From Lactiplantibacillus nangangensis (lineage in GTDB: Bacteria > Bacillota > Bacilli > Lactobacillales > Lactobacillaceae), in NCBI RefSeq assembly GCF_005405065.1, contig NZ_BJDI01000011.1:1-64000 (forward strand): DNA of 64,000 bases. Direction: 5' to 3'. Positions 59,025-64,000 of this stretch are shown here, piece by piece. The notes beneath the pieces were generated by a model, which ran no database searches, was not told the origin of the DNA, and saw only the letters and a list, made by a program, of their open reading frames with translations. Made by a program: the position numbers and the translations under genes. Position 1 is the first letter of the stretch. Each line of letters starts with the position of its first letter.

Positions 59025-60026
59025 ATGAAAGCAGCGCAGTTAACCAAATACGAGTCAGATTTTAAGTTAGTCGTACGTGACATTCCAACCCCAACGCCAA
59101 GTGAAAATGAAGTTTTAGTGCAAGTTAAAGTCGCCGCCGTCAATCCAATCGAGCATCTGATTGGCAGTGGCAGTGTGAAATTGATTCAAAATTATGACAT
59201 GCCACTGACGATGGGCAATGAACTATCCGGTATCGTCACAGCAGTTGGCTCAGCTGTGAGTCGTTTCAAGGTCGGCGATGCCGTTTATTCCCGCTTACCG
59301 TTGACCAAGATTGGTGCGTTTGCGGAGTTTGTTGCGATTGATGAACAAGCGGTAGCCTTAAAGCCCAAAACGCTCGATTTTGAACACAGCGCGGCCGTGC
59401 CCTTAACCGGTTTGACTGCCTATCAAGGGTTTACCGAAGAACTCGCGGCACAGTCTGGTCAAAGCGTCATGATTCCCGGTGGTTCTGGTTCATTTGGACA
59501 ATTGGCGATTCCAATTGCGAAAGAACTGGGCTTGAAAGTCATGGTGAGTGGTAACGCCCGTGGCAGAGAAAACGCAGCGACAATGGGCGTCTCACAATAT
59601 TTTGATTATAAACAAGAAAATTATTGGGAATCGCTTGCTCCCGTTGATTATGTGATTGATACGATTGGTAAACCAGAATTATCCCATGAACTGTCCGTGT
59701 TGAAATCGGGTGGTCGGTTACTTTCTTTGCGGATGGGACCTAATCGTCGGTTTGCAAAACAACATCAGTTATCTTTTTTGAAGACAACCCTCTTCTCGCT
59801 AGCAGGCACTCAGCTTGACCATCAAGCGAAAAAAGCGGGCGTCCAATATCATTTTATTTTTGTTCGTAGTGATGGCGCGCAATTAGCCAAGATTACTGAG
59901 ATCGTGGAACGTGAAAATATCGTGCCAGCGATTGATCCAACCCAGTTCAGTTTAGCGCAAGTCAATGAAGCCCTGGAGCTAGTGGCCAATGGTCATCCTA
60001 AGGGTAAAGTCCTGATTCGTTTCTAG
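59025..60026 (+). CDS. MDR-family NADP-dependent oxidoreductase (quinone reductase type)
   Basis: A 333-residue zinc-free medium-chain dehydrogenase: MGNELSGIVTAVGSAVSRFKVGDAVY, the NADP loop SVMIPGGSGSFGQLAIPIAKELGLKVM, and a typical GxxVPAIDPTQFSLAQVNEALE-like end. Zinc-ligand cysteines are absent. It reduces quinones or enones. GAGGAG precedes ATG. First gene of a two-gene operon with an alpha/beta hydrolase. Confidence 0.9.
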   Translation: MKAAQLTKYESDFKLVVRDIPTPTPSENEVLVQVKVAAVNPIEHLIGSGSVKLIQNYDMPLTMGNELSGIVTAVGSAVSRFKVGDAVYSRLPLTKIGAFAEFVAIDEQAVALKPKTLDFEHSAAVPLTGLTAYQGFTEELAAQSGQSVMIPGGSGSFGQLAIPIAKELGLKVMVSGNARGRENAATMGVSQYFDYKQENYWESLAPVDYVIDTIGKPELSHELSVLKSGGRLLSLRMGPNRRFAKQHQLSFLKTTLFSLAGTQLDHQAKKAGVQYHFIFVRSDGAQLAKITEIVERENIVPAIDPTQFSLAQVNEALELVANGHPKGKVLIRF

Positions 60027-60039
60027 AAAGGTGATTCAA

Positions 60040-60882
60040 ATGAAAAATACAACTTATACAAAAGTCCCAACTCAAAAAATAACGGCTAGCAATGGCGTCA
60101 CGTATGCTTATCGCGATTTAGGCGATCCAGTCGGCGTGCCATTAGTTGCGGTGACGCATCTTTCTGCAAATTTGGATAATTGGGACCCTGAAGTGATTGA
60201 TGGGTTAGCTCGGCATCAACGTGTGATTACGTTTGATTATCAAGGCGTTGGGAGTTCAAGTGGCCACGTGCCAACGAGTATCCAAGGGATGGCTAGTGAT
60301 ACGTTGAATTTCATCAAAACCATGCATTTGACTAAAGTTAATCTGCTCGGTTTTTCAATGGGTGGCATGGTTGTACAAGAAATGTTGTTGCAACAACCTA
60401 AGCTCGCGCAGCATGTGATCTTGGCGGGGACTGGTCCTCGGGGTGGCGAAGGCATTGAGAATGTGACTAAGATTTCAGACATGGACTTGGTTCGTGCGAT
60501 ATTCACCTTAACAGACATTAAAACGTCCTTATTCTTCACGCGAACAGAAAACGGGAAGACTAGTGCAAAACAGTTTTTAAAACGGCTGAAACGGCGGCAA
60601 CAACAGCGTGACCGTACGATTTCATGGGTGGCTTATCGTCGGCAACTCAAAGCGATTAACCATTGGGGACGTGACGAACCAGCTGATCTTTCGGGGATTA
60701 CACAACCGGTGTTAATTTTGAACGGTGACCATGACCGCATGGTACCGACTGACCCGAATACCTATGACTTACATCGGCAATTAACCAACAGTGAGCTGGT
60801 CATTTATCCGGATGCTGGCCATGGCAGTATTTTCCAAAATGGCCCTGACTTTGTTAGAAGAGCTAATGCCTTTTTAGCGTAG
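60040..60882 (+). CDS. Alpha/beta hydrolase
   Basis: A 280-residue hydrolase with the nucleophile elbow GFSMGG, the Asp in LNGDHDRMVPTDP and His in DAGHGSIFQ. Similar to non-haem chloroperoxidase-like/esterase enzymes; the substrate is unknown. ATG at 60040 follows AAAGGTGATT; GTG 60031 lies on that site. Thirteen bases after the oxidoreductase stop, so both are under the TetR protein. Confidence 0.9.
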   Translation: MKNTTYTKVPTQKITASNGVTYAYRDLGDPVGVPLVAVTHLSANLDNWDPEVIDGLARHQRVITFDYQGVGSSSGHVPTSIQGMASDTLNFIKTMHLTKVNLLGFSMGGMVVQEMLLQQPKLAQHVILAGTGPRGGEGIENVTKISDMDLVRAIFTLTDIKTSLFFTRTENGKTSAKQFLKRLKRRQQQRDRTISWVAYRRQLKAINHWGRDEPADLSGITQPVLILNGDHDRMVPTDPNTYDLHRQLTNSELVIYPDAGHGSIFQNGPDFVRRANAFLA

Positions 60883-60989
60883 TAGGGCACTTGTTAATAT
60901 AATTAAACATCGTTGTTATAACGGCGATAGGTTTGGCACTTATTCTCTGATATAATTATTTTTATAGATAATATTGGGGATGAAATGAG

Positions 60990-61604
60990 ATGCGGGTAAA
61001 ACGGCTTAAGGGAATTTTTAGTTGGGTGATACCGATTGTGGTTGGCTTGGCACTGGCTTTATTAATTCGCCAATTTTGGTTCACGATGGTTAAGGTACAA
61101 GGCACGTCGATGCAACCAAACTTGCAATCAAAGGAACGTGTTATCGCTGTAAAAACGGTTCCGATTAAGGCTGACTCAGTGATTGTTTTCAAGGCATATG
61201 GAGTGAATCAGGAAGAACAAGACCGGCGTGCTGATTATGTGAAACGTGTGATTGGCCTTCCAGGTGATACGGTTCGCTATACCAGGCGCGGTCAATTGTA
61301 TGTGAATGATAAATTAGTCAAGCAGTCCTATTTGAAAAATCAATTTCAACAAACGACTGGCACTTATATGGCAAATCGTCATAGCCAGATGACCGGCTGG
61401 ACATTGACTAGTTTGAGTCACGATCAATCCGCCTGGCAAGTTAAAGTGACGACTAATCGGGTGCCTAAGGGTTACTATTTTGTGATGGGTGATCATCGTA
61501 GCGTTTCTAATGATAGCCGGAGTTGGGGCTTTGTCCCTAAAAAAGCAGTTGTTGGCGTCGTTCATACTTGGCCATGGCAAGCCCGCAAACAATATCTTAA
61601 TTAA
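60990..61604 (+). CDS. lepB: Signal peptidase I
   Basis: A 204-residue type I signal peptidase. One N-terminal membrane anchor (VIPIVVGLALALLIRQFWF), catalytic Ser in VQGTSMQPNL, catalytic Lys in RRADYVKRVIGLPGD, and box E GDHRSVSNDSRSWGFV. It cleaves signal peptides of secreted proteins on the outer face of the membrane. GGGGATGAAATGAG lies before ATG. Confidence 0.95.
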   Translation: MRVKRLKGIFSWVIPIVVGLALALLIRQFWFTMVKVQGTSMQPNLQSKERVIAVKTVPIKADSVIVFKAYGVNQEEQDRRADYVKRVIGLPGDTVRYTRRGQLYVNDKLVKQSYLKNQFQQTTGTYMANRHSQMTGWTLTSLSHDQSAWQVKVTTNRVPKGYYFVMGDHRSVSNDSRSWGFVPKKAVVGVVHTWPWQARKQYLN

Positions 61605-61682
61605 ACGCGATATTTAGATGAACTCTGATGCACACAAACTTTAATATTTAACGTTTAATTTGTTAAACATATTGGACAACCA

Positions 61683-61732
61683 AAATAAAGCAGAAACTGT
61701 GATTGAATGCTATCAGTTTCTGCTTTATTTTG
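61683..61732. terminator. Bidirectional terminator (lepB / 61769 gene)
   Basis: AAAATAAAGCAGAAACT pairs perfectly with AGTTTCTGCTTTATTTT. Confidence 0.92.
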
Positions 61733-61768
61733 TTGATTGGAAATTTTCAGATACTTTGCAATGACGTT

Positions 61769-62143
61769 CTAACGAATAGCAATGTCATTGGTCGGCGATT
61801 TTTTAGATATTTGAAAATTGGGTTCTAAGAGTGTATTAGTGCTTCGAAGTTGGAAAGTTGAAGTATGATAATCGAAAATGACTTGCATGTCCTGATCTAG
61901 CGTCAGTTCGGTGTCGTGGTTAAAATAAACTTTACCAGCATTTGACATCAAAACATTACTGAAGGTAACGGGGATTGTTTTAGCAGGTGTAATAAATAAA
62001 TTATATTTCAAACCGTTTTGTGATAAATAGTCTGAGAACTCGCCAATGCCGTCGTCAAGGTCTAAAACAAGCTCATCTTGTGTGTTTTTGAGTTGGTTAA
62101 TTTTATTAAGTGCGTTGTTATCAAAAGTTAATTTCATCATCAT
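61769..62143 (-). CDS. HesB/IscA-like fold protein without cysteines
   Basis: A 124-residue protein of the FeS-biosynthesis (HesB-like) fold: KLTFDNNALNKI, ELVLDLDDGIGEFSD, then strand-rich C-terminus. True A-type carriers need three cysteines; none occurs in this protein, so it should not carry a cluster. Starts directly after the TetR stop (TGA followed by ATG), so it is translationally coupled to the regulator. Confidence 0.7.
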   Translation of the reverse strand: MMMKLTFDNNALNKINQLKNTQDELVLDLDDGIGEFSDYLSQNGLKYNLFITPAKTIPVTFSNVLMSNAGKVYFNHDTELTLDQDMQVIFDYHTSTFQLRSTNTLLEPNFQISKKSPTNDIAIR

Positions 62144-62716
62144 TCAGTCCTTTTTGAGTGATTTAATTGTAGTGGCAACAATTGCGTGAATGTTAGCAGA
62201 TTCCTTGGGATTACGAATGACTTGCTGGATACCGTTATGCAAGAGTAATAACTCCGATGCAAGTGTTTCGATTGGTAAATCTGCTCTTAACTCATGCTTC
62301 ATACTAGTTAAAACAAGCATAAAATTAGCTGCTAGTTCGTCAAATTGCTTGTTAGCGATTTGCGTTAGGCGGGGATCGATTTGGTCGAGTTTAGCTAAAG
62401 AATTTACGACTAAACAGCCTTGAGGGTAGTTAGCTGGTTTTGTATCAAAAATTAACAAGTCACGTAGCTTTTGTTCGGGTGTCTTATTGCTCTGAATAAT
62501 TTGAGTTGATAATTGACTGAATGTTGAAACATAACGATTCAGTGCTTGATAGAATAGCTCATTTTTATTGCCAAAGGCGTTATACAAACTTTGCGTCTTA
62601 ATGCCAGTGGCGATAGTTAATTCACGGAAACCAGTTGCCTCGAAACCGTTTTTCCAAAAATAGATCATTATTTTTTCTAAAATGACATCACTGTTAAAAC
62701 TAAGTTTTCTTGCCAT
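62144..62716 (-). CDS. TetR-family regulator
   Basis: A 190-residue repressor: FNSDVILEKIMIYFWKNGFEATGFRELTIATGIKTQSLYNAFGNKNELFYQAL is the HTH, and the C-terminal part has a TetR_C-type YPQGCLVVNSLAKL. ATG 62716 is chosen for AAGGAG upstream; ATG 62788 would put the operator inside the gene. First gene of a two-gene operon. Confidence 0.9.
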   Translation of the reverse strand: MARKLSFNSDVILEKIMIYFWKNGFEATGFRELTIATGIKTQSLYNAFGNKNELFYQALNRYVSTFSQLSTQIIQSNKTPEQKLRDLLIFDTKPANYPQGCLVVNSLAKLDQIDPRLTQIANKQFDELAANFMLVLTSMKHELRADLPIETLASELLLLHNGIQQVIRNPKESANIHAIVATTIKSLKKD

Positions 62717-62735
62717 TGATGAGTTTTCTCCTTTT

Positions 62736-62751
62736 TTGAACGGCCGTTCAA
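62736..62751. promoter_or_regulatory. TetR operator, perfect palindrome
   Basis: TTGAACGGCCGTTCAA, 20 bases before the TetR start codon, is a perfect 16-bp palindrome of a common TetR-site type (autorepression). Confidence 0.75.
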
Positions 62752-62821
62752 CAATTTGAAGTATAGTGCCATCTGTTTTGATTGTCAATAATTAAAATGT
62801 GTCAGTTTGCTTATTTGGACT

Positions 62822-62858
62822 CAAAAAGGCCCGCCGACAGTTGTCAACGGGCCTTTTA
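62822..62858. terminator. Terminator after the HAD gene
   Basis: AAAAGGCCCG pairs with CGGGCCTTTT around a 15-base loop. Confidence 0.85.
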
Positions 62859-62863
62859 GTGGC

Positions 62864-63487
62864 TTAAAAGAGTGTCAAAATATCTAAAGGTTGTTTAAAA
62901 CGATAAGCGGTTTGTTGATGATTAGCGTTCGGGTCCATGCCCCAAACGGCTAAGCCAAAATCAACCTTGGCTGCGGCGGCGGTTTGTTCATCGCTGAGAG
63001 AATCCCCAACGAATAGGGCATCGCTAGGTTGAACGCCAACCCGAGCTAACGCCGTCAACAATGGTAACGGATCTGGCTTTCGTTTTGGCGTGTCGTCGGC
63101 ACTGATCGTAACAGCCAACCGGTCCATAAAGTCATACTGAGCCATGCCGCTTTCCATTTCGTTGCGACGTTGTGAGGTCACGATACCTAGTTTTACGTCG
63201 GTCGGTAGCTGTTGCAAGAGGGGTGCGATTCCAGGATACAAGGTAATATCTTGATAATGGTCGGCCATCACAGCTTCATAGCGAGCTTGGAAGTGGTCAA
63301 AGTCATCCGCGGCAATGCCGAGGTGGGCCATCGCTTGTTCAGCGGCCATTGGGAAAGTCGCTTGCGCATCCGCGGCACTAAATGGTTTGTCGTATTCGCT
63401 TAAAACTTGGGCCATGACCTTGGCATAGGCGGGCTGGCTATTGGTGAGCGTTCCATCGATATCGAACATGATGGCTTGATAAGTCAT
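62864..63487 (-). CDS. HAD-superfamily phosphatase
   Basis: A 207-residue HAD hydrolase of the Gph/PgmB subfamily: MFDIDGTLTNS (nucleophile Asp), LGIVTSQRRNEMESGM, and the late motif KPDPLPLLTAL, FVGDSLSDEQTA. A small cap domain lies at about 18-80. Likely a phosphoglycolate phosphatase-like or sugar-phosphate phosphatase; substrate unknown. Confidence 0.92.
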   Translation of the reverse strand: MTYQAIMFDIDGTLTNSQPAYAKVMAQVLSEYDKPFSAADAQATFPMAAEQAMAHLGIAADDFDHFQARYEAVMADHYQDITLYPGIAPLLQQLPTDVKLGIVTSQRRNEMESGMAQYDFMDRLAVTISADDTPKRKPDPLPLLTALARVGVQPSDALFVGDSLSDEQTAAAAKVDFGLAVWGMDPNANHQQTAYRFKQPLDILTLF

Positions 63488-63537
63488 TGAAGATCATCCT
63501 TTCAACCTGATTTACTCTCAGTATATCAAATTAACCG

Positions 63538-63566
63538 TTGACAGTGATTATTTGGATTGTTATAGT
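63538..63566 (+). promoter_or_regulatory. Strong promoter of the leader-peptide operon
   Basis: TTGACA (63538-63543), 17 bp, TATAGT (63561-63566), about 30 bases before the leader peptide start. Confidence 0.9.
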
Positions 63567-63596
63567 TAGATTAATAATTGATGAGGAGCTAATGAT

Positions 63597-63659
63597 ATGT
63601 CATTACCATTGAACCAACCAAAAAGATCAACTAGCTTTTACTTTTGGTATTTTCGCTAG
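63597..63659 (+). CDS. Leader peptide with six consecutive aromatic codons
   Basis: A 20-codon ORF (MSLPLNQPKRSTSFYFWYFR) with a strong ribosome site GAGGAG nine bases before ATG. Residues 14-19 are F-Y-F-W-Y-F. It is followed by an attenuator and the start of the next gene. A run of regulatory codons like this marks ribosome-mediated attenuation by aromatic aminoacyl-tRNA supply. Confidence 0.85.
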   Translation: MSLPLNQPKRSTSFYFWYFR

Positions 63660-63831
63660 TGTTTGTGCCCGCTGCTTAGGTGCAAACACGAATCCGATGT
63701 TTGCATCGATGCGGCTTGCCAAGAGCTTTTTGCGATTCAATGGCGCCCATGGATGTTTGAAAATTCCAAGGGTGGCTAAAATAAGTTTTTTCGCGCAACA
63801 CACCCTTTGAATTTTCGACGGGTGTGTTTTT
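63641..63831 (+). promoter_or_regulatory. Transcription attenuator: four mutually exclusive RNA segments
   Basis: Segment 1 (63641-63654, inside the F-W-Y-F codons) can pair with segment 2 (63759-63772; one mismatch, two G-U). Segment 2 extended (63759-63774) pairs with segment 3 (63801-63816; 15 of 16). Segment 3's CACCC is also the 5' arm of the terminator ACACACCC/GGGTGTGT (63798-63805 with 63820-63827) followed by a T-run. A stalled ribosome on segment 1 would free 2 to pair with 3 and prevent termination. A further hairpin (63659-63669 with 63679-63689) lies after the leader stop. Confidence 0.85.
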
Positions 63832-63903
63832 GTTTTCTCAGAAACACCTCATAAATCAGCCATCAGACCCCGAGCCAATCAAAAATTCTGGGAGGAAACC
63901 CTT

Positions 63904-64000
63904 ATGTCTATTGATTCTGAAACTTTAGTGCAACACATGAATAACCAACTTAGTGCCATCCAACCGTCCGATATTTTAGCTTTTAACGCTGAAATTGCCA
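63904..64000 (+). CDS. 5' end of a gene under aromatic attenuation, possibly an aminotransferase
   Basis: The frame starts MSIDSETLVQHMNNQLSAIQ with GGGAGG 9 bases upstream and runs off the window after 32 codons. The stretch IQPSDILAFNAEIA resembles the start of class I aromatic/branched aminotransferases (AraT/PatA-like), which would fit the aromatic leader peptide, but 32 residues cannot prove it. Confidence 0.45.
   Translation, partial: MSIDSETLVQHMNNQLSAIQPSDILAFNAEIA

Follow-up and report, generated by a model that had tools for sequence, protein, structure and literature searches.

A probable leader-peptide attenuator with aromatic control codons ahead of an aminotransferase gene in Lactiplantibacillus nangangensis

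Attenuation by leader peptides is a textbook mechanism known from enteric bacteria, whereas the aromatic genes of Firmicutes are generally assigned to control by T-boxes or TRAP; aromatic regulation in low-GC Gram-positives is reportedly the subject of a study by Panina et al. from 2003. At the end of the 64,000-nucleotide stretch of L. nangangensis DNA that we analyzed (the window), a short open reading frame (ORF) with six aromatic codons in a row stands between a promoter and an intrinsic terminator, upstream of a further gene. This raises the question of whether a Firmicute that uses T-boxes also controls a gene by the translation of an aromatic leader peptide, as an earlier note on this DNA had proposed from the letters alone. 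To answer it, we analyzed the anatomy of the leader, its conservation within and outside the genus, the pairing of its control codons and the predicted effect of the ribosome position on its folding.

Anatomy of the leader and its conservation in Lactiplantibacillus

The leader and the gene behind it comprise the following features:

63538–63566, + strand: promoter TTGACA-17-TATAGT with a TG before the −10 element (consensus scan and aligned upstream regions)
63584–63588, + strand: ribosome-binding site AGGAG of the leader peptide (sequence; AGGAG in all 21 rows of alignment A3)
63597–63659, + strand: leader peptide gene of 20 codons, MSLPLNQPKRSTSFYFWYFR plus a stop codon at 63657 (sequence; kept in 21/21 genus genomes)
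63636–63653, + strand: control codons Phe-Tyr-Phe-Trp-Tyr-Phe (sequence; Phe and Tyr in all 100 compiled leaders)
63641–63647, + strand: codon arm CUUUUGG of helix P0, from the Tyr, Phe and Trp codons (C-UUU-UGG; pairing counts and alignment)
63659–63669, + strand: segment 1, which begins inside the stop codon (11 pairs with segment 2, −13.0 kcal/mol; invariant in 21 species)
63679–63689, + strand: segment 2, with segments 1 and 3 as alternative partners (helix energies and genus alignment)
63698–63721, + strand: segment 3 (63698–63707 and 63711–63715) and its tail (63709–63721), the tail being able to pair with segment 4
63719–63725, + strand: partner arm CCAAGAG of helix P0 (pairing counts and alignment)
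63741–63753, + strand: segment 4, which pairs with the tail of segment 3 or with segment 5 (helix energies and genus alignment)
63757–63775, + strand: segment 5, the 5' arm of the antiterminator, complementary also to the control codons (63638–63655)
63797–63831, + strand: intrinsic terminator (stem 63797–63805 with 63820–63828, inner pairs 63807–63810 with 63815–63818, then a T run; −16.6 kcal/mol), with segment 6 as its 5' arm and segment 7 as its 3' arm
63904–65103, + strand: regulated gene, encoding a class I/II aminotransferase of 399 amino acids (the window ends at 64000)

The promoter matches the consensus at 11 of 12 positions. Its score by itself does not exceed the chance level (the scanned 1 kb contains 2 promoter-like sites, against 1.9 expected), but it is conserved in 22 of 22 aligned upstream regions, from 21 genus members and from locus L039 of another genus. 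The earlier note had described this promoter, a 20-codon peptide with a ribosome site and an F-Y-F-W-Y-F run, and a terminator at 63798–63827, all of which are present; the terminator spans 63797–63828 and is one that a simple terminator scan did not list. The antiterminator, described there as 15 of 16 pairs with 63801–63816, is formed by 63757–63774 and 63801–63818 (17 pairs, −20 to −22 kcal/mol), and the gene at 63904, which the note had left to be identified, encodes the aminotransferase. Compared with shuffled sequences, the leader folds with a z score of −5.0 and the part from 63661 to 63850 with one of −4.3. The energies of the successive helices in the window are −13.0 (1:2), −23.2 (2:3), −10.4 (3':4, with the tail of segment 3), −11.7 (4:5), −20.2 (5:6) and −16.6 kcal/mol (6:7). 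Three of these helices, 63659–63669 with 63679–63689, 63679–63688 with 63698–63707 and 63744–63753 with 63765–63774, go beyond the earlier note, which also lacked the second partner of the control codons at 63719–63725. Its trp/phe-type logic is supported as far as an aromatic leader-peptide attenuator in a T-box-using Firmicute is concerned, but the element is longer than the four segments proposed and contains further alternating hairpins.

Leader DNA was found in 21 of 21 genus genomes searched, and in all of them ...SFYFWYFR is encoded ahead of the aminotransferase. Loss of the ORF or of its aromatic run, named in the earlier note as evidence against attenuation, was therefore not seen within the genus. 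The N-terminal half of the peptide is variable, and four differences in leader length occur, each of 3 nt and in frame. Relative to L003, the codon differences in 16 genus members with leaders of the same length amount to 34 synonymous and 61 non-synonymous ones, an excess of the latter that counts against the attenuator reading. Compensatory changes, which the note had suggested looking for, were found in the terminator, where 8 of the 9 outer pairs have changed on both sides (alignment A3), but neither in the duplex of the control codons with segment 5 nor, above the shuffled level, in the antiterminator state (91.8% paired, 1 double-change cell against a shuffled mean of 1.1). The 3':4 helix is 92% paired in the genus, and the pair 63721:63741 is broken in 13 of its 21 members. 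Because all pairs of 1:2 and of the main 2:3 helix (63679–63688 with 63698–63707) are invariant in 21 of 21 species, covariation cannot test these two helices within the genus.

Aromatic leaders and the codon helix across Lactobacillaceae

Genomes of the family were searched for a ribosome-binding site, an ATG and the run [FY][FY][FY]W[FY][FY], using the reversed pattern as a control. The pattern matched 84 of 397 family genomes, from 15 of 40 genera, and the reversed pattern matched 2 genomes; among the pattern matches listed, 13 look by eye like ordinary coding sequence. In the order as a whole, 14 of 395 genomes matched the pattern, and 3 of the 14 belong to other families. Two outside matches were rejected: the one in G656 (L241) has no leader-like layout, and the one in G527, identical in sequence to a Vagococcus record (L138), reads on as coding sequence. 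Plasmids gave no match.

We compiled 100 distinct leaders from 15 genera of the family, 93 of which precede aminotransferase homologues. Every one of them has at least two Phe codons and at least one Tyr codon, and 11 have no Trp codon. The proposal that Phe, Tyr and Trp are sensed together is thus borne out for Phe and Tyr, but Trp is not essential. Outside the genus the order of the residues varies (YYFWFF, RYYFRFF, FYFKYF, FALWYF, FFFGFF), as does the tail of the peptide (R, QS, HKHL, HECL, G). A further 39 upstream regions of aminotransferase homologues were fetched regardless of the presence of a leader, second copies from three genomes included; 25 have an aromatic leader and 14 do not. 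Retention of the terminator after loss of the leader was another outcome that the earlier note had counted against attenuation: within the last 350 nt, 11 of the 14 leaderless regions also lack a terminator-like hairpin, but 3 have one.

Several leaders depart from the common layout. In L087 and L089, which are of the Weissella type, a frame change leads to the reading Y-F-T-F-G-F-F-R and the codon-helix sequences CTTTTGG and CCAAAAG are retained. The leader of L268 (G033) has lost its usual stop codon, and its peptide extends across the P0 partner to LLARSIS, the partner pairing being retained within coding sequence. The leader of L039 (G128) reads F-A-L-W-Y-F and has a matching codon helix (CCUUUGG with CCAAAGG); the aminotransferase behind it is 83% identical to that of the window, and several listed congeners have no match at E 1e-120, which suggests that the operon may have been transferred horizontally together with its attenuator.

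The codon helix P0 forms 7 of 7 pairs, wobble included, in 93 of the 100 leaders when the best partner is chosen for each leader, compared with 550 of 2000 shuffles. Of the 7-mers within about 75 nt the best was taken as the partner, and the controls were mononucleotide shuffles of the downstream sequence, so that the choice of the best match flatters the helix; in L060–L063 the 7-mer lies at +59 and may be there by chance, which would leave 89 of 100. Since the chance rate of a best partner is this high, the argument for P0 is carried by its steady position, its flanking sequence and its compensating changes. In an alignment of 40 leaders without any choice of partner, 99.3% of the cells are paired, with double changes in one pair only (3 cells; 12 of 500 shuffles did as well). 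The 24 distinct arm combinations together form 164 pairs, and shuffling the partners 1000 times never gave more than 154; here too, choosing the best partner biases the control in favour of the helix. The codons and the partner change together in several leaders: UGG is replaced by CGG with partner CCGAGAG (L263), by UAU with AUAAGAG (L250), by AAG with CUUGAGG (L273) and by UUG with CAAAGAG (L267), and UUU is replaced by UAU with CCAAUAG (L090–L093) and by UUC with CCAGAAG (L285 and L051). Thus the Trp codon has given way to Arg, Tyr, Lys or Leu in some leaders with the pairing retained. On these comparisons, we read P0 as a helix that is probably under selection, and Trp as probably dispensable where Phe and Tyr are not. 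Such changes from codon to partner, including the loss of the Trp codon, are a natural experiment that sets the signal that is sensed apart from the pairs that hold the RNA together.

The other helices were analyzed in alignment A1 (group B), which consists of 40 of the 79 non-genus leaders chosen for a GATCTGTG-like segment 1 and the helices of which were read from one of its members; both the choice and the reading favour the structure. A further alignment, A2, with 9 leaders, was left out of the counts. With this in mind, the terminator-state helices are 96.4% paired and contain 129 double-change cells, compared with 34.5 in shuffles (reached in 0 of 500), and in the antiterminator state the helices pair in 96.1% of the cells, and double-change cells number 10, compared with 1.4. 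The 2:3 helix pairs in 100% of the cells, and one of its pairs occurs as G-C, A-U and C-G. When the stop-codon region was paired with its best partner downstream, at most 1 of 20 shuffles did as well in 72 of the 100 leaders; the start of segment 1 was restricted here to between 6 nt before and 7 nt after the first base of the stop codon, and its position is therefore partly by construction. A covariance model (R1) built from the 40 A1 leaders, none of which comes from the genus of the window, finds the window leader (63632–63842) at E 3.4e-10, as the only match in this genome at E 1e-3. R1 matches 80 of 201 family genomes at the same threshold, and the weak end of these matches includes T-box-like sites.

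Ribosome position, proposed mechanism and alternatives

To analyze how the position of the ribosome affects folding, the RNA was cut at the end of the terminator 5' arm and the mean probability that this arm pairs upstream was calculated as a function of the ribosome front. For a ribosome halted on the aromatic codons (front 5 nt short of the stop codon) the A1 mean is 0.67, and for one at the stop (front 13 nt beyond the stop codon) it is 0.34, with a drop in all 37 leaders (out of 40) in which a terminator was located. Because the A1 selection favours the structure, the test was repeated on the other 39 non-genus leaders, 36 of which have a located terminator: the values were 0.65 and 0.44, with a decrease in 31 of 36 and a response in the wrong direction in 4 (L099, L113, L268 and L280). 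Altogether, the predicted antiterminator pairing outside the genus falls in 68 of 73 leaders as the ribosome moves from the codons to the stop, and starvation should therefore cause read-through. In the genus of the window, the same equilibrium test showed no effect of the ribosome position (mean −0.03, positive in 9 of the 20 leaders, out of 21, with a located terminator), and in L039, the closest outsider, the effect is 0.009. When 1:2 was imposed instead of 2:3, however, upstream pairing in the genus was 0.51 compared with 0.23 and went up in 17 of 21 members, so that the sign of the response in the genus would depend on the order of folding. In this model a kinetic relay must be assumed for the genus of the window; 1:2 is transcribed before 2:3.

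We propose that the window element is a ribosome-mediated transcription attenuator that is read through upon aromatic starvation, and we give this reading a probability of about 85%. The front edge of a ribosome lies some 13 nt beyond the point where the A-site codon begins, and a ribosome at the stop codon would cover segment 1. When charged Phe-tRNA and Tyr-tRNA, and usually Trp-tRNA as well, are plentiful, the ribosome translating the leader would reach the stop codon at 63657 and cover segment 1, upon which 2:3 and 4:5 would pair, the terminator would form and transcription would halt ahead of the aminotransferase gene. When these tRNAs are uncharged, the ribosome would stall on FYFWYF and 1:2 and 3:4 would form; segment 5, free of both segment 4 and the codons, would then pair with the terminator 5' arm and allow read-through. 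P0, and in the genus also the pairing of the codons with segment 5, would act in the same direction by favouring termination whenever the codons are free.

The model of the earlier note is simpler: in the genus only the pairings of the codons with segment 5, of 5 with 6 and of 6 with 7 would matter, as in trp, and 1:2 and 2:3 would be spacers. We hold this to be possible but rather unlikely. Its core, the pairing of codons 63641–63654 with 63759–63772, is real and part of a longer duplex between 63638–63655 and 63758–63775 (17 of 18 pairs, −15.9 kcal/mol), in which 98.6% of the cells are paired in 21 species. For ten genus members, the downstream 140 nt were shuffled 100 times with dinucleotides preserved: the codon pairing was matched by none of the shuffles in five members, by 1 in two, and by 11, 21 and 8 in L013, L021 and L023, and segment 5 was the best codon partner in 9 of the 10. 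The finding that masking segment 1 has no effect on equilibrium folding in the genus also agrees with this simpler model. The duplex is strong, but it is seen within the genus only and shows no covariation, and the codon helix found across the family is the one with CCAAAAG-type partners: in 12 of 13 leaders tested from other genera, with 85 nt searched, the codons find their best partner at a site that begins no more than 7 nt upstream of the P0 partner. Moreover, segments 1–3 are among the best-conserved parts of the leader, with pairs invariant in 21 of 21 species, and they have counterparts in other genera, in which the fully paired 2:3 helix shows three pair types. The control codons of the genus thus have two downstream partners, both of which would favour the terminator when the codons are free.

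TnaC is an arrest peptide, and by analogy the nascent FYFWYF could sense free aromatic amino or keto acids in the exit tunnel rather than uncharged tRNA, in which case the signal could be an excess. FYFWYFR directly precedes the stop codon in 21 of 21 genus members, and a catabolic role is conceivable given the part of a Pediococcus aminotransferase in phenyllactate formation, as stated in the available text of PMC10175570. Sensing in the tunnel is nevertheless improbable, as outside the genus the order of the residues and the tail of the peptide differ while the content of Phe and Tyr codons and the RNA pairing are kept, and as leaders rich in Ser, Val or Ile occur at sites found with the same model R1. 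A reading as a degenerate T-box, or as a different leader that binds tRNA or protein and has an incidental ORF, is very improbable, since the presence at 63768–63775 of AAGGGTGG, which we take to resemble the start of the T-box motif, and the weak R1 matches to sites with T-box motifs are set against the lack of any match to the T-box covariance model RF00230 in 60000–64000 at E up to 5 in a genome (G000) with 34 such matches at E 1e-3 or better (13 above the Rfam cut-off, none at the attenuator locus), the lack of GGTGGNACC on the + strand of 63001–64000 and an ORF that is kept in 21 of 21 members with length changes in frame. A TRAP leader has about eleven closely spaced (G/U)AG triplets; 63567–63800 has only seven, which are scattered, and control of this kind is not supported.

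Proposed target genes, sister sites and comparison with known systems

Directly 3' of the aminotransferase gene lies a gene for a D-2-hydroxyacid dehydrogenase; beyond a gap come the genes for an ABC transporter of the amino-acid type. A family scan assigned the aminotransferase to Aminotran_1_2, with PRK07309 as the best NCBIfam model (574.8 bits, cut-off 576), and related the second protein to D-lactate dehydrogenases at scores below the cut-offs. The substrates of the aminotransferase would belong to the aromatic class, and the pair would interconvert aromatic amino, keto and hydroxy acids, with induction upon aromatic starvation as its role. According to the available text of PMC10175570, the formation of phenyllactate from phenylalanine, and that of hydroxyphenyllactate, needs an aminotransferase in Pediococcus. 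Control by starvation would imply that the pair mainly makes or recovers Phe and Tyr from keto and hydroxy acids and that phenyllactate is an overflow product. If this is true, an aminotransferase and hydroxyacid dehydrogenase pair of the type that the available text of PMC10175570 links to antifungal phenyllactate would be induced by aromatic starvation and not by excess.

Aromatic leaders also occur at other genes. Forty secondary R1 sites, picked by hand from the match list, were read by eye: 23 are aromatic leaders, 10 are other short leaders, 5 have a T-box motif and 2 show nothing clear. In 23 of the 23 secondary aromatic leaders, the codon helix forms 7 of 7 pairs at the best partner. 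Family scans identified the genes behind them as those for a PTS_EIIC_2 membrane protein (L349), shikimate dehydrogenase (L353 and L358), transketolase (L354), DAHP synthase (L356), chorismate synthase (L366) and a TrpX-like binding protein (L382; 346.7 bits, cut-off 390), and at the remaining secondary aromatic sites the genes were assigned by eye from the first residues. The first leader set likewise contains aromatic leaders before a PTS_EIIC_2 gene (L088) and a transketolase gene (L094). Membrane proteins of the PTS_EIIC_2 type stand behind aromatic leaders in two genera (L085, L088, L349–L352 and L380; L088 and L349 by scan, the rest by eye), which suggests that they handle an aromatic amino acid or a precursor.

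Other sites have leaders with different codon runs. Two Ser-rich leaders, TSSSWS (L373, 174–236) and SSSRSCC (L381, 175–246), lie on the reverse strand of their loci in a layout with hairpins and a terminator; the gene in L373 encodes a phosphoserine transaminase of the serC type, and that in L381 a class-V aminotransferase (family scan). Within their first 330 bases in leader orientation, L363, L364, L367, L376, L377, L378, L385 and L386 have short ORFs with runs of Ile, Val, Leu/Ile, Ala or His codons, which are followed by hairpins and terminators. Hydratase-like, amino-acid transporter, lactate-dehydrogenase-like and aminotransferase genes are among those behind the Ile, Val, Leu, Ala and His leaders. 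We take these Ser, Val, Ile, Leu, Ala and His candidates as leads.

We lean towards the view that these elements form one family of leader attenuators in Lactobacillaceae, in which a shared RNA relay (P0, a segment starting near the stop codon, alternating hairpins and a terminator) would have been re-targeted by codon swapping. It would include the aromatic leaders before aminotransferase, DAHP synthase, shikimate dehydrogenase, chorismate synthase, transketolase, EIIC-like and TrpX-like genes as well as Ser-, Val-, Ile-, Leu- and Ala-rich leaders before other genes; it would provide a codon-programmable alternative to the T-box within a single family and would place the phenyllactate-type pair under starvation (anabolic) control. 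If real, the conserved Phe/Tyr(/Trp) leaders add a regulon that covers several steps from transketolase to the aminotransferase.

The window leader would work like the trp and his attenuators of E. coli and Salmonella, in which a short leader peptide has consecutive codons for the amino acid under control, the position of the ribosome picks between exclusive helices and an intrinsic terminator precedes the first gene. Its proposed multi-helix relay resembles the his leader in particular. Unlike them, it has Phe, Tyr and usually Trp codons in one run, its segment 1 begins at or near the stop codon, its codon arm has a conserved partner that changes together with the codons, and as searched it occurs in Lactobacillaceae only. 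There is also no relation in Rfam: a comparison of all families of Rfam 15 with the window gave nothing at or near the cut-off, and among 20 related loci searched at E up to 0.1, two matches to microRNA families, both in L263, fell below the cut-off. The pheA and pheST leaders of E. coli also place Phe codons in a leader peptide that governs transcription attenuation, but they use Phe alone and differ in genes, lineage and structure. A T-box (RF00230) senses uncharged tRNA and controls a terminator, whereas the window element would sense it through the translation of the leader ORF; in a genome with 34 T-box matches, the aromatic leader attenuator is used once.

Among Firmicutes, leader-peptide attenuators have been described for other amino acids. 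These are the His leader of hisS paralogues in bacilli (PMC2965389), His leaders in lineages without HisR and His T-boxes (PMC9413887) and the Leu-rich leader of ilvD in Staphylococcus aureus, together with predicted branched-chain leaders in Lactococcus and Streptococcus (PMC5794164). As far as their available text goes, these leaders follow the same principle and replace T-boxes, but for other amino acids and genes than the window leader, and the three sources describe no aromatic leader and none in Lactobacillaceae. Our search of the open literature found no description of an aromatic or Lactobacillaceae leader-peptide attenuator; subscription work may hold one. The window leader has the structural features of a leader-peptide attenuator, and it stands apart from the known ones by the set of codons used, the genes targeted, the lineage and a relay that is longer.
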